Source: Persicimonas caeni (lineage in GTDB: Bacteria; Myxococcota_A; Bradymonadia; Bradymonadales; Bradymonadaceae). Taken from it: DNA of 64,000 nt. The stretch lies in NCBI RefSeq assembly GCF_006517175.1, contig NZ_CP041186.1, positions 3,933,074 through 3,997,073 on the forward strand, written 5' to 3'. Below the pieces are notes generated by a model. The model was given only the letters and a program-made list of their open reading frames with translations, made no database searches and was not told where the DNA came from. A program made the position numbers and the translations under genes. This document shows, in pieces, positions 33,059-61,292 of this stretch (positions within the stretch are counted from its first letter, which is position 1; the number at the start of each line of letters is the position of its first letter).

Positions 33059-33880
33059 GTGAGCTTGGTACTTCTGGACATCGACGGCACGCTTCTGGGC
33101 GCCGACGGCGGCGTTGACGCCGCCATCTGGTCGGCCGCCGAACGGCTGCGCGACGCCGGGCTTCGCCTGGCCGTGTGCACGGGGCGCACCCACTCGGGCG
33201 TCGCCCTCGACATCGCCCGCCGGTTGGATGCGGGCGCGCCGCATATCTTCCACAACGGCGCGCTCGTCACCACCGCCGACGCCGAGCCGAAGCTGTTGCA
33301 CTCTGCGCCCCTGGGGGCCGACGTGCTACGCCGGCTCGTCGGCCACGCCCGCCGCCTCGAGGCGACGATCGAGTTCTATACGGCCGGCGAGGTCTACGTC
33401 GACCGCATCACCACCGAGTGCGCCCGGCACGCCGAGGTGCTCGACATCGCGCCTGTGGAGCGCGACTTGGAGGGGGTCTTGATCGACGAGGAGGTCATCC
33501 GCGCCCACTGGATCATCGACCCCGCACTCCTCGACCAGGCGCTCGCCGTCGACCTGCCGGCCTGCAACGCGTCCAGCGCCACGTCGCCGGCGCTCCCCAA
33601 AGACGCCTTCATCAGCGTGACGAGCGCCCACGTCTCCAAGGGCACCGGCGCGGTCTTCGCCGCCGAGCACCTGGGCGTCGACCTGGCCGACGTCGTCGGC
33701 GTGGGCGACTCGATGAGCGATATCCCGATGCTCGACGCCGTCGGCCACCCGTTTGCCATGGCCGACGGCGACCCGCAGGTATGCGAGCGATTTCGCACCT
33801 GCGGCCCCGTCGACCAGAACGGCGTCATCGAGGCGCTCGAGTTCGCGCTTCGTCGGTGCGGGGACTTGCAGCCGTCGTGA
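33059..33880 (+). CDS. HAD-superfamily hydrolase, Cof type
   Basis: A 273-residue phosphatase-like protein; GTG start at 33059 with AGAGGTGA upstream inside the end of the preceding gene. HAD motif I is LLDIDGTLLG, motif II Thr is in VCTGRTH, the motif III Lys is in HVSKGTGAVF, and motif IV is VGVGDSMSDIPML. A C2B-type cap lies between motifs II and III, as in Cof/YidA sugar-phosphate phosphatases. The last codons (ALRRCGDLQPS) are encoded by sequence matching the 35-bp repeat that follows the gene, so the native C-terminus seems to have been replaced or extended by a repeat unit. Substrate unknown. Confidence 0.85.
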   Translation: MSLVLLDIDGTLLGADGGVDAAIWSAAERLRDAGLRLAVCTGRTHSGVALDIARRLDAGAPHIFHNGALVTTADAEPKLLHSAPLGADVLRRLVGHARRLEATIEFYTAGEVYVDRITTECARHAEVLDIAPVERDLEGVLIDEEVIRAHWIIDPALLDQALAVDLPACNASSATSPALPKDAFISVTSAHVSKGTGAVFAAEHLGVDLADVVGVGDSMSDIPMLDAVGHPFAMADGDPQVCERFRTCGPVDQNGVIEALEFALRRCGDLQPS

Positions 33881-33883
33881 GAC

Positions 33884-34056
33884 GTCTTCGGTGCGTGGGC
33901 TTCTAGCCCTCGCAAAGAGTCTTCGGTGCGTGGGCTTCCAGCCCTCGCAAAGAGTCTTCGGTGTGTGGGCTTCTAGCCCTCGCAAAAAAAGCGAGGCCAA
34001 GATGGCCCCGCACCGAAGAAGAAAAGCGAGGCCAAGATGGCCCCACACCGAAGAAA
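33884..34056. repeat. 35-bp repeat array, three direct and two inverted copies
   Basis: Direct units with period 35 begin at 33884, 33919 and 33954 (GTCTTCGGTGCGTGGGCTTC, then TAGCCCTCGCAAAGA). Two complementary units begin at about 33991 and 34026 (GCGAGGCCAAGATGGCCCCG, then CACCGAAGA). The array can fold into one long hairpin. The unit shares its core with the 63-bp repeats in the methyltransferase gene at 59489. Confidence 0.8.
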
Positions 34057-58525: not shown

Positions 58526-58596
58526 CGTTGACCGGTTCGAGGTGGCGACGTAGATTGAAGAGGCGTTATTTCACCTGTCCAGCACACGCATTCGCT

Positions 58597-58890
58597 ATGT
58601 CGACCATCCCGCCAGTCGAGCCTCAGAAGCACCGTTTCACGGTCGAGGAGTACCGTCGGCTCGGGCAAAGCGGCATTTTCGGGGAGGACGACCGTGTCGA
58701 GCTCATCGACGGGGAGATCTACGAGATGGCACCGGTTGGCGCTCGGCATATGGGTCACGTCAACCTGTTGACTCGCCTGTTCTACGCGCAGGTGGCCGAC
58801 GCGGCGACTATCAGCGTTCAAAACCCGGTACGCTTGGGAGACGACTCGGAACCCGACCTCGACATCGGCGTGGCCGAGATCTTCGCTTGA
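58597..58890 (+). pseudogene. Truncated Uma2-family (DUF820) protein gene
   Basis: 97 residues: KHRFTVEEYRRLGQSGIFGE, DDRVELIDGEIYEMAPVGAR, HMGHVNLLTRLFYAQVADAA and VRLGDDSEPDLDIGVAEIFA. This is the N-terminal half of the PD-(D/E)XK-fold Uma2 family, found in clusters in cyanobacteria and actinobacteria. Full members run ~180-200 residues with a later EVSDSSLxxDRxxK active-site stretch; here a stop falls right after PDL and the rest is missing. The break is followed by sequence leading into a copy of the 63-bp-type repeat. It is therefore listed as broken. Confidence 0.75.
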
Positions 58891-58988: not shown

Positions 58989-59058
58989 TCGGTGCGAAGG
59001 CATCTTGCCCTCGTATGCGAGAGCAGGGATGCACTCGCACCGAAAGTGGCGAGGGCAG
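58989..59058. repeat. Copies of the GGTGCGxxGGCATCTTGCCCTCG motif, direct and inverted
   Basis: TCGGTGCGAAGGCATCTTGC (58989) and, inverted, GCACTCGCACCGAAAGTGGC, GAGGGCA (59033). Placed between the broken Uma2 gene and the methyltransferase start. Confidence 0.65.
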
Positions 59059-59087
59059 CAAGTAATCGCAACGACGATGGAGCAGTC

Positions 59088-61292
59088 GTGGAGCTCGGTG
59101 ACATCGCATTCGCCCCCTACGTGCGCCGCTGGCGCACCGCCTTGGCCGACCTTCCCGCCGAAGGCTACGGCGTCTTGGTCGACGCCATCACCTGCCGCCA
59201 GGCCGAGCGTCTGGGCGTGGTGGTCGACGACTGGACGTCGAGCGACGCCGCCGCTCTCGAGCGCGCCCGTGCGCTGCTCGACGAGGTCGACTGCGACGGG
59301 CGCGAGGCGCTGTGGGACGAGCCACACACCCTCGGCTGGTTTCACCAGCATTTCGGTGAGGTCGAGCGCGACGCGAGCAATCGGGCGCACACTCGCGACG
59401 AGGAGAAGCACGCCTCGGGCACCGTCACCACCCAGCTCTACACCCCGCGATGGGTGGCCGATTTCCTGGCGAAAACCTGCCTCGACACGGTGTCAGACAC
59501 CGCGTCGACGCCCCGAGAACATCGGTGCGGGGGCATCTTGCCCTCGGACTCGGTGTCAGGCACCGCGTCGACGCCCCGAGAACATCGGTGCGGGGGCATC
59601 TTGCCCTCGGACTCGGTGTCAGGCACCGCGTCGACGCCCCGAGAACATCGGTGCGGGGGCATCTTGCCCTCGGACTCGGTGTCAGGCACCGCGTCGACGC
59701 CCCGAGAGCTTCGGTGCGGGGGCATCTTGCCCTCGTTGACTGTCTGCGACCCCGCCGTGGGCGGCGGACAGATGCTCCTCGCCGCCCTCGACGACCTGAT
59801 CTCGCGCGGCGTCGAGCCCGCCGACGCCGCCGCGCGGCTGTACGGCGTCGACCTCGACACTCGCGCCGTCGACGTCGCCCGCCGCGCGCTGGCGCTGGCC
59901 GTCGCCCGCCACCTGGGCCGGCGCGACGAGGCCGCCGAGGCGGCCATCCAGGCCAACGTCCGCGTCGCCGACGGGCTCTTCGACGAGCTCGGCGAGTTCG
60001 ACGTCGTGATCACCAACCCGCCGTATATGGGCTCGCGCTCGATGCCCGCCGCGCTCAAAGAGCGCATCCGCGCGACCTACCGGCCGTTTCACGCCGACCT
60101 GTACACTGCGTTCATCCGCCGCTGCCACGAGCTGTCGACCCACACCGTCGGCGTGCTCGCCCAGCAGACGGTGTGGTTCTTGAGTCGCTTTCGAAAAGCC
60201 CGCAGTTGGCTACTCGACCACGGCGAGCTGGTCGCGTTCATGCACCTGGGCGCGCACGCCTTCGCCAACCTGAACGGCGAGAAGGCCAACGTGGTCGCGT
60301 TCGTGCAGAGCCGGGCGGGCGCGGGTGAACCGACCGAGTTCATCGATCTTCGCGCCTATTCGGACGCCGCGGCCAAGCGCGACGCCTTCGTCGAGCGCCG
60401 CGACGAGCACACCCGCCGCGAGCCGGCGACCGCCTTCGACGCGCTCCCCGGCCGCGTGCTCGCCCACTGGCTGCCCCAACGCCTGCGCGCCCACTTCGAC
60501 GGCGGCCGCACACTCGCCGACCTCGCCGATATCCCCGGAAGCCAGAACAAGACGGGCAAGAATCGCCGCTACGTCAAAAACTGGCGCGAGGTCGACCCCG
60601 GCGAGCTGCGAAGCGCCCCCGAGATCGTCGGCGAGGCCGGCGCGGACGACGGCCGGTGGGTCTTTTACAGCAAGGGCGGGCGTTACGCGCCCTGGTGGGG
60701 CAACTGGCACAACGTGGTCGACTGGTCCGACGAGGCGCGCGCCTTCTACGCCGACAACCGCACCTCGAACCTGCTCGCCCAAAAGTGGTGGTTCCGCGAG
60801 GGCATCTGCTACACCGACTTCGGCGGGCGCACCTTCAACGCCCGCCTGATGCCCCGAGGATGCGTGTTCGACATGGCCGGCCCGGCGATCTTTCCGCACG
60901 ATCCCGACGACCTGTACGTCCTGCTCGCCGTGCTCAACTCGACGCCGGTGCGCGCGCTCCTGAACGCCATGAACCCGAGCCTGCACTACCAGGTGCGCGA
61001 CCTGCGCAACCTGCCGGTGCCCGAGTGGTCCGCCGACCTGGCCGCCGAGCTCGCCGGCCGCGCCCGCCGGCTTGTCGACGGGATGAAAGAGGTGGCGTGC
61101 TTCGTCGACGACAGCCCACGCAGCCTGTGTCGCGACACGGCGGACGCCGAGCAGGTGCGCGCGTTCGGCGCGGAGTGCGCGACCCTCGAGCGGGAGGTCG
61201 ATGAGATGGTGTGCGAGTTGTATGGGTGTTCGGAGTTGGTGGAGTCGGGCGAGCGGCCGGTGCACGATTATTTGGGGCGTTTCGAAAAGTAG
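59088..61292 (+). CDS. Orphan adenine-specific DNA methyltransferase (PglX/Eco57I type) carrying four 63-bp repeats
   Basis: About 734 residues from GTG at 59088 (GGAG 5 nt upstream; the frame is open further upstream but that part is repeat DNA). An N-terminal helical part leads to TTQLYTPRWVADFLAKTCLD. Then ~84 residues encoded by tandem repeats (TASTPREHRCGGILPSDSVS per unit) interrupt, followed by motif I VCDPAVGGGQMLLAALD and motif IV VITNPPYMGSRSMPAALKER. Target-recognition-like sequence includes WWFREGICYTDFGGRTFNAR, then FDMAGPAIFPHDPDDLYVLL. Both catalytic motifs are intact. It resembles PglX of BREX systems but is shorter, and no brxA, brxB, brxC, pglZ or brxL gene is nearby. No nuclease domain was seen. 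Confidence 0.82.
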   Translation: MELGDIAFAPYVRRWRTALADLPAEGYGVLVDAITCRQAERLGVVVDDWTSSDAAALERARALLDEVDCDGREALWDEPHTLGWFHQHFGEVERDASNRAHTRDEEKHASGTVTTQLYTPRWVADFLAKTCLDTVSDTASTPREHRCGGILPSDSVSGTASTPREHRCGGILPSDSVSGTASTPREHRCGGILPSDSVSGTASTPRELRCGGILPSLTVCDPAVGGGQMLLAALDDLISRGVEPADAAARLYGVDLDTRAVDVARRALALAVARHLGRRDEAAEAAIQANVRVADGLFDELGEFDVVITNPPYMGSRSMPAALKERIRATYRPFHADLYTAFIRRCHELSTHTVGVLAQQTVWFLSRFRKARSWLLDHGELVAFMHLGAHAFANLNGEKANVVAFVQSRAGAGEPTEFIDLRAYSDAAAKRDAFVERRDEHTRREPATAFDALPGRVLAHWLPQRLRAHFDGGRTLADLADIPGSQNKTGKNRRYVKNWREVDPGELRSAPEIVGEAGADDGRWVFYSKGGRYAPWWGNWHNVVDWSDEARAFYADNRTSNLLAQKWWFREGICYTDFGGRTFNARLMPRGCVFDMAGPAIFPHDPDDLYVLLAVLNSTPVRALLNAMNPSLHYQVRDLRNLPVPEWSADLAAELAGRARRLVDGMKEVACFVDDSPRSLCRDTADAEQVRAFGAECATLEREVDEMVCELYGCSELVESGERPVHDYLGRFEK
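59489..59735. repeat. Four tandem 63-bp units within the methyltransferase gene
   Basis: Units start at 59489, 59552, 59615 and 59678, the last one partial at its end. Each has the palindrome GGTGTCAGGCACC (or GGTGTCAGACACC), GCGTCGACGCCCCGAGAACA, then TCGGTGCGGGGGCATCTTGC and CCTCGGACTC. The units are near identical, and their length is a multiple of three. Confidence 0.9.

Follow-up and report, generated by a model that had tools for sequence, protein, structure and literature searches.

An array of composite 63-bp units with REP-type palindromes in the coding sequence of a PglX-like methyltransferase of Persicimonas caeni

The methyltransferase gene and its array

Persicimonas caeni is a predatory marine bacterium. 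The window, i.e., the whole stretch of 64,000 nucleotides that was analysed (contig NZ_CP041186.1, positions 3,933,074 to 3,997,073), carries a gene for a putative DNA methyltransferase in which 63-bp units are repeated in tandem. Each unit is a composite of two palindromic repeats, here termed REP-A and REP-B. The features of the locus are as follows.

58990..59013, + strand: single diverged REP-B copy, ~75 bp 5′ of the methyltransferase start codon (REP-B scan)
59088..61292, + strand: PglX/BrxX-like adenine-specific DNA methyltransferase gene (GTG start by coding score)
59439..59477, + strand: conserved TPRW helix region (YTPRWVADFLAKT), ahead of the insert (orthologue alignment)
59480..59735, + strand: 4.1 in-frame 63-bp units, REP-A + REP-B composite (Tandem Repeats Finder)
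59488..59502, + strand: unit 1, REP-A palindrome in its canonical form, CGGTGTCAGACACCG (REP-A scan; the same form adjoins RAYT-A genes)
59523..59546, + strand: REP-B core of unit 1, exact (REP-B scan)
59551..59565, + strand: REP-A variant CGGTGTCAGGCACCG, unit 2 (REP-A scan)
59586..59609, + strand: REP-B core of unit 2, exact (REP-B scan)
59614..59628, + strand: REP-A variant, unit 3 (REP-A scan)
59649..59672, + strand: REP-B core of unit 3, exact (REP-B scan)
59677..59691, + strand: REP-A variant, unit 4 (REP-A scan)
59712..59735, + strand: REP-B core of unit 4, exact (REP-B scan)
59748..59771, + strand: motif I (SAM site) DPAVGGGQ, intact (sequence; kept in orthologues)
60015..60026, + strand: motif IV NPPY (catalytic), intact (sequence; orthologue alignment)

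The open frame extends from 58992 to 61292 and is free of stops also upstream of the GTG codon at 59088, which is the start preferred by a home-made hexamer-based gene caller. From this codon the frame comprises 734 uninterrupted codons. Pfam recognizes Eco57I (1.7e-16) and N6_Mtase (3.5e-8), the best NCBIfam model is BREX_1_MTaseX (E 4.5e-88, 296 bits, cut-off of 500 not reached), and PADLOC assigns the protein to PglX models. Both the sequence profile and the fold place it closest to the solved structures of PglX/BrxX (8c45, 9ewz, and 8zek), and Foldseek matches BrxX, CamA, M.BseCI, and M.TaqI. Motif I precedes the NPPY motif IV and the fold agrees, as in Gamma-type N6-adenine DNA methyltransferases. 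N309, P310, and P311 of motif IV fall in invariant alignment columns, and the residues of such columns are all present in the protein.

The closest characterised relative is BrxX/PglX of the BREX system (8c45, 9ewz), in which, according to the profile alignment, the TPxW helix and motif I are likewise widely separated in sequence. However, the window methyltransferase has ~734 residues versus ~1200 in BrxX/PglX, its score is far too low for the family cut-off, and its loop derives from repeats and is unrelated in sequence to that of BrxX. The neighbouring genes in the window (a truncated Uma2-like ORF and putative lipoproteins, judged by eye) do not look BREX-like. By sequence, the enzyme is apparently an orphan PglX-like adenine methyltransferase, shorter than PglX. 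The short ORF at 58528-58890, just 5′ of the gene, resembles by eye the N-terminal part of a Uma2-type protein and is probably truncated.

An earlier note on this DNA had described four nearly identical 63-bp units placed in frame ahead of motif I, and this description is borne out. Tandem Repeats Finder gives a period of 63, 4.1 copies, 97% matches, and a score of 477, against a best score of 65 in 30 dinucleotide-preserving shuffles of the window, and the ORF remains open. In the protein, the array lies between YTPRWVADFLAKTCLD and TVCDPAVGGGQ, and its four units are translated as TVSDTASTPREHRCGGILPSD, SVSGTASTPREHRCGGILPSD (twice), and SVSGTASTPRELRCGGILPSL. The palindrome GGTGTCAGGCACC, which had been attributed to every unit, is present in units 2-4, whereas unit 1 carries GGTGTCAGACACC. 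Units 2 and 3 are identical in their DNA; in unit 4, GAGCTTCGG replaces GAACATCGG. Per codon, the coding score drops from 0.50 ahead of the array to −0.27 inside it and returns to 0.51 behind it, and this fall points to an array that is foreign to the gene. The complete 63-mer matches the array site alone in the genome, and the other 106 among the matches listed correspond to the REP-B half only.

It is extremely improbable that the array was produced by genome assembly. One paper on YN101 gives Illumina PE150 as the sole sequencing method (PMC7188933). Reads of 150 bases would by themselves leave the number of units undecided, since the two middle units do not differ and ~207 bp separate the bases that mark unit 1 from those that mark unit 4. 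A second paper of the same group, however, gives Illumina plus PacBio (PMC7460792), whose reads would span 256 bp; similar arrays also occur genome-wide, and units 1 and 4 have sequence differences of their own. There is no doubt that the array exists; its exact count of four is a little less certain. The two YN101 papers (PMC7188933, PMC7460792) disagree on sequencing method and accession numbers, and the published genome size of 8,047,306 bases (PMC7188933) exceeds by 100 bases the 8,047,206 of the one contig analysed.

Two palindrome families and their linked transposases

REP-B (TCGGTGCGGGGGCATCTTGCCCTCG) has 444 matches in the genome at up to 3 mismatches, whereas its reversed control has 0, and none was found in 57 relatives. 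The repeat is 25 nt long, with positions −1 to 23 conserved over 161 copies, and its consensus is TCGGTGCG[G/T]GGGCATCTTGCCCTCG. The statement that the GGTGCGGGGGCATCTTGCCC core also occurs in intergenic copies elsewhere is confirmed by these matches, by the copy at 58990-59013, and by variants at 33853-34055. The latter region of the window is a mixed REP-B variant array with GGTGCGTGGGCTTCTAGCCCTCG forward and GGTGCGGGGCCATCTTGGCCTCG reverse and a period of 35 bp. Another part of the window, 1006-1255, holds two adjacent arrays of 16-bp units (AAAGAAGCGAAAGAGT and GCTCTTTTGCTTCTTC) which look mutually inverted.

With up to 2 mismatches allowed, REP-A (ACACGGTGTCAGACACCGTGT) has 300 strand-wise matches versus 18 for the control, and its consensus, ACA[CT]GGTGTCAGACACC[GA]TGT, is a near-perfect palindrome. 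As single-stranded DNA, the two repeats are predicted to fold into hairpins of −7.0 kcal/mol (z −3.3) for REP-B and −9.8 kcal/mol (z −3.5) for REP-A. REP-B has the size (20-40 nt), palindromic form, and high copy number of a REP. The GTAG (or CGTC) end tag is absent from both: the REP-B consensus starts with TCGGTG before the stem, and REP-A is a near-perfect palindrome.

Both families are linked to Y1-type transposases, for which the genome gives 26 Y1_Tnp matches. RAYT-A (L060, L063-L077, and L080) is present in 17 copies encoding a transposase of ~330 residues. REP-A lies 5′ of all 17 ORFs, at a distance of ~1135-1149 nt from the point where the open frame ends, and an inverted copy follows ~244-281 nt downstream in 13 of them. 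RAYT-A looks like an IS-like family that was recently active. REP-B flanks exactly one Y1 ORF, RAYT-B (G000:5,453,013-5,453,792, 259 residues open), with five copies before it on the + strand and two after it on the − strand. A Y1 gene with inverted flanking repeats, the arrangement typical of REP/RAYT systems, is thus found for both families. The HxH motif occurs in the RAYT-type transposase, and the best NCBIfam match of both proteins is REP_Tyr_transpos (4.5e-18 and 65.5 bits for RAYT-B, 4.4e-19 and 68.8 bits for RAYT-A, with a cut-off of 80).

The arrangement recalls the REPtron (Nunvar et al. 2010, PMC2817692), in which a Y1-type transposase ORF likewise lies between inverted repeats and hundreds of repeat copies are present in the genome. 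It differs in belonging to the Bradymonadales and not to gammaproteobacteria, in having no GTAG and many arrays in direct orientation, and in transposases that score under the REP_Tyr_transpos cut-off. Given the missing GTAG tag of REP-B and transposase scores under the NCBIfam cut-off, the label REP is used here on the basis of arrangement and presumed function.

Entry into genes and growth of arrays

The frequency of intragenic repeats was estimated in six contiguous stretches totalling 2.34 Mb, 85% of which is coding according to the home-made hexamer caller, a tool that may misplace starts and accept antisense ORFs. In this sample, 61 of 63 REP-B arrays are intergenic, one is at a gene edge, and one is within a gene; the window has three arrays, one of them intragenic. 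REP-B is thus strongly depleted in genes across the sample and, like known REPs, mostly extragenic. Its entry into genes is rare, not unique. Indeed, a pabB-like gene (Pfam Chorismate_bind; G000:C1:7722789-7724186; L257:2789-4186, − strand; L283) contains an in-frame pair of REP-B copies in opposite orientations, and its protein is longer than its relatives at this pair. A 705-residue ORF covering the array at G000:443,241-443,480 was not counted as an in-gene case, as by eye it looks antisense and spurious.

REP-A is less confined to intergenic DNA than REP-B: exact copies are found within predicted genes in 9 of 29 cases in the sample (stretches L083-L162, L246-L282). All nine are in the frame that reads [TM]VSDT. 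Two of them belong to a family-B DNA polymerase, polB (G000:C1:4394866-4395315, L297; L127:14206-18429, − strand), in the palm region right after SLYPSIIRTF, and this stretch is 18 residues shorter in the sole relative found (G004). Some of the remaining seven may be spurious or may leave the protein at its usual length. The copies in MobA-like and beta-propeller-like genes were not counted as insertions, given that no obvious lengthening of the protein was apparent by eye. Repeat-like matches to the methyltransferase insert in G081 were also set aside; they belong to an unrelated 21-residue DTDGDGICEDLDQC repeat, and the shared 63-bp period is coincidental.

Intragenic REPs have been reported previously. 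In Thauera and R. conorii, clusters of REPs within genes encode 43-82 residues (Di Nocera et al. 2013, PMC3733652); their targets include DNA replication and repair genes, and it was proposed that flexible loops tolerate them (PMC3733652). The Persicimonas repeats share with these elements (PMC3733652) their nature of small palindromes which are mostly intergenic but also sit within genes without breaking the frame, either as single copies or as clusters. They differ in that the GTAG/CGTC tag was not found, two families are joined in one composite unit, the unit is amplified fourfold in tandem (84 residues), and the host is a DNA methyltransferase. Rickettsia palindromic elements (RPE; PMC3733652) are likewise palindromes inserted in frame in genes that are probably still functional; however, they are of other sequence and lineage, whereas the Persicimonas elements adjoin candidate cognate transposases and amplify in tandem. 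The methyltransferase array is a striking variant of a published phenomenon, the occurrence of REPs in genes.

The mode of growth of the arrays was deduced from 34 REP-B arrays with at least 3 same-strand units, in which spacers of equal length were compared. Spacers are 95% identical within an array and 49% between arrays, and their length is constant in 25 of the 34 arrays. Since the spacers are array-specific, it seems that arrays expand by local tandem duplication of the repeat and its adjacent DNA after a single entry. The methyltransferase array, whose 39-bp spacer contains REP-A, is another example of an array-specific spacer. The idea that a repeat was amplified in frame within the gene is thereby supported.

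Origin and tolerance of the insert

Orthologous loci were retrieved from 17 relatives, 16 of which fully cover the insert site. The insert is missing in all 16, as the earlier note had anticipated for an acquired repeat; the seventeenth locus (L011) ends at a contig end just before the site, and there too the linker is short. From TPRW to DPA the window protein has 98 residues, compared with 21 in the closest orthologue, that of Bradymonas sediminis, which is 65% identical outside the insert; other orthologues with a countable pattern have 15-25 residues, mostly 18-25. The array does encode the 84 residues that had been estimated as its contribution, whereas the linker is longer than that of the closest orthologue by a net 77 residues. 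The loop before motif I had also been described as normally short. This holds for the close orthologues and not for the wider N6-MTase/PglX family: among 80 relatives from an alignment-based scan, 40 have a readable motif pair, and the linker measures 32-66 residues in 34 of these and 20-24 in the other 6, with a median of 51. The insertion site is naturally variable in length.

An AlphaFold model of the methyltransferase, built with 17 sequences, has a mean pLDDT of 81.8 and a pTM of 0.81. Insert residues 140-211 have a pLDDT below 50 (~26-34 in the insert), and the surrounding fold is confident. In this model, the insert is probably an unstructured and tolerated loop. In Rossmann-type methyltransferases, the loop before strand 1 and the glycine-rich loop that binds SAM leave the sheet on opposite faces; given this general feature of the fold, the nearness of the insert to the SAM motif is a weak concern.

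Four copies might nevertheless impair the enzyme. It could be argued that the gene is being inactivated, the insert having abolished activity and the frame having yet to decay, as an 84-residue segment of low coding score lies few residues from motif I and the methyltransferase is an apparent orphan with no other BREX genes noticed nearby. This reading is unlikely: the 734 codons are open, motifs I and IV are intact, the residues of the invariant columns are present, and the fold predicted around the insert is confident.

The evidence favours, with a probability of about 0.78, the view that two REP-type hairpins entered the loop of a PglX-like methyltransferase, that the composite unit was tandemly duplicated to four, and that it was kept as a tolerated linker. 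According to this mechanism, REP-A and REP-B, each with its own RAYT-type Y1 transposase, would have reached the loop before motif I through transposase-mediated entry. REP-A probably came first, as unit 1 still has the canonical palindrome, read as VSDT like the in-gene copies elsewhere, and REP-B would have settled beside it; the REP-B copy at 58990..59013 is a possible local donor. The resulting 63-bp unit would then have been duplicated to four, either by slippage during replication at the site or by unequal exchange. Retention of the array may be due to a unit length divisible by three, to the absence of stops in the reading frame of the gene, and to the flexible hydrophilic linker that is encoded, at a site where long loops are already accepted in the wider family, so that its effect on enzyme function would be near neutral. 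The earlier proposal of a mobile intergenic repeat that invaded a coding gene is thus largely right, considering the 16 relatives devoid of the insert, the dispersal of both halves in the genome, and the link of each to a transposase.

The earlier note had further suggested that copy number acts as a phase or length switch for methylation. A phase switch is unsupported: 63 bp correspond to 21 codons, a change by whole units never shifts the frame, and a unit without an in-frame stop leaves the gene open at any copy number. Frame-shifting phase variation was accordingly rejected on unit length. As a length switch, the gain or loss of 21-residue units in strains or cells would tune the activity or the target choice of the enzyme. 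In type I HsdS proteins of the EcoR124 family, specificity shifts with the number of short in-gene repeats, which provides a precedent, and the DNA identity of units 2 and 3 is what a recent change in copy number would leave; REP-B arrays elsewhere in the genome reach 11 units. Such tuning is very unlikely all the same. A single genome is available, with no copy-number variation on record, the unit belongs to a loop in the catalytic part that is predicted to be disordered and not to a spacer between recognition domains, on/off switching is impossible with 63 bp, and the repeats behave alike in intergenic DNA, where there is no protein to tune. More doubtful still is the notion of an in-frame minisatellite, fused from two transposase-linked hairpin families, whose copy number from cell to cell would tune methylation as a rheostat built from REPs.

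A slightly smaller chance again is given to co-option of the array as a peptide domain or as a selected DNA or RNA regulatory element, e.g., a structure in the mRNA or an array of hairpins bound by proteins. The DNA hairpins are strong, and REPs and BIMEs are mentioned in PMC2817692 as known binding sites for several proteins, which would suit such a role; however, the array is absent in relatives, has a low coding score, and is predicted to be disordered, and REP-B is strongly depleted in genes.

With the entry, duplication, and tolerance of two hairpins as the preferred reading, intragenic REP insertion is extended to a predator of the Bradymonadales, in which two transposase-linked families meet in one coding array. 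The spacer comparison provides a numerical demonstration that such arrays enlarge through local tandem duplication once inside. The polB, pabB, and methyltransferase cases make P. caeni a good organism for studying how hairpins enter genes and are tolerated there, and the methyltransferase in particular offers a clean test of the neutrality of a loop made by REPs.
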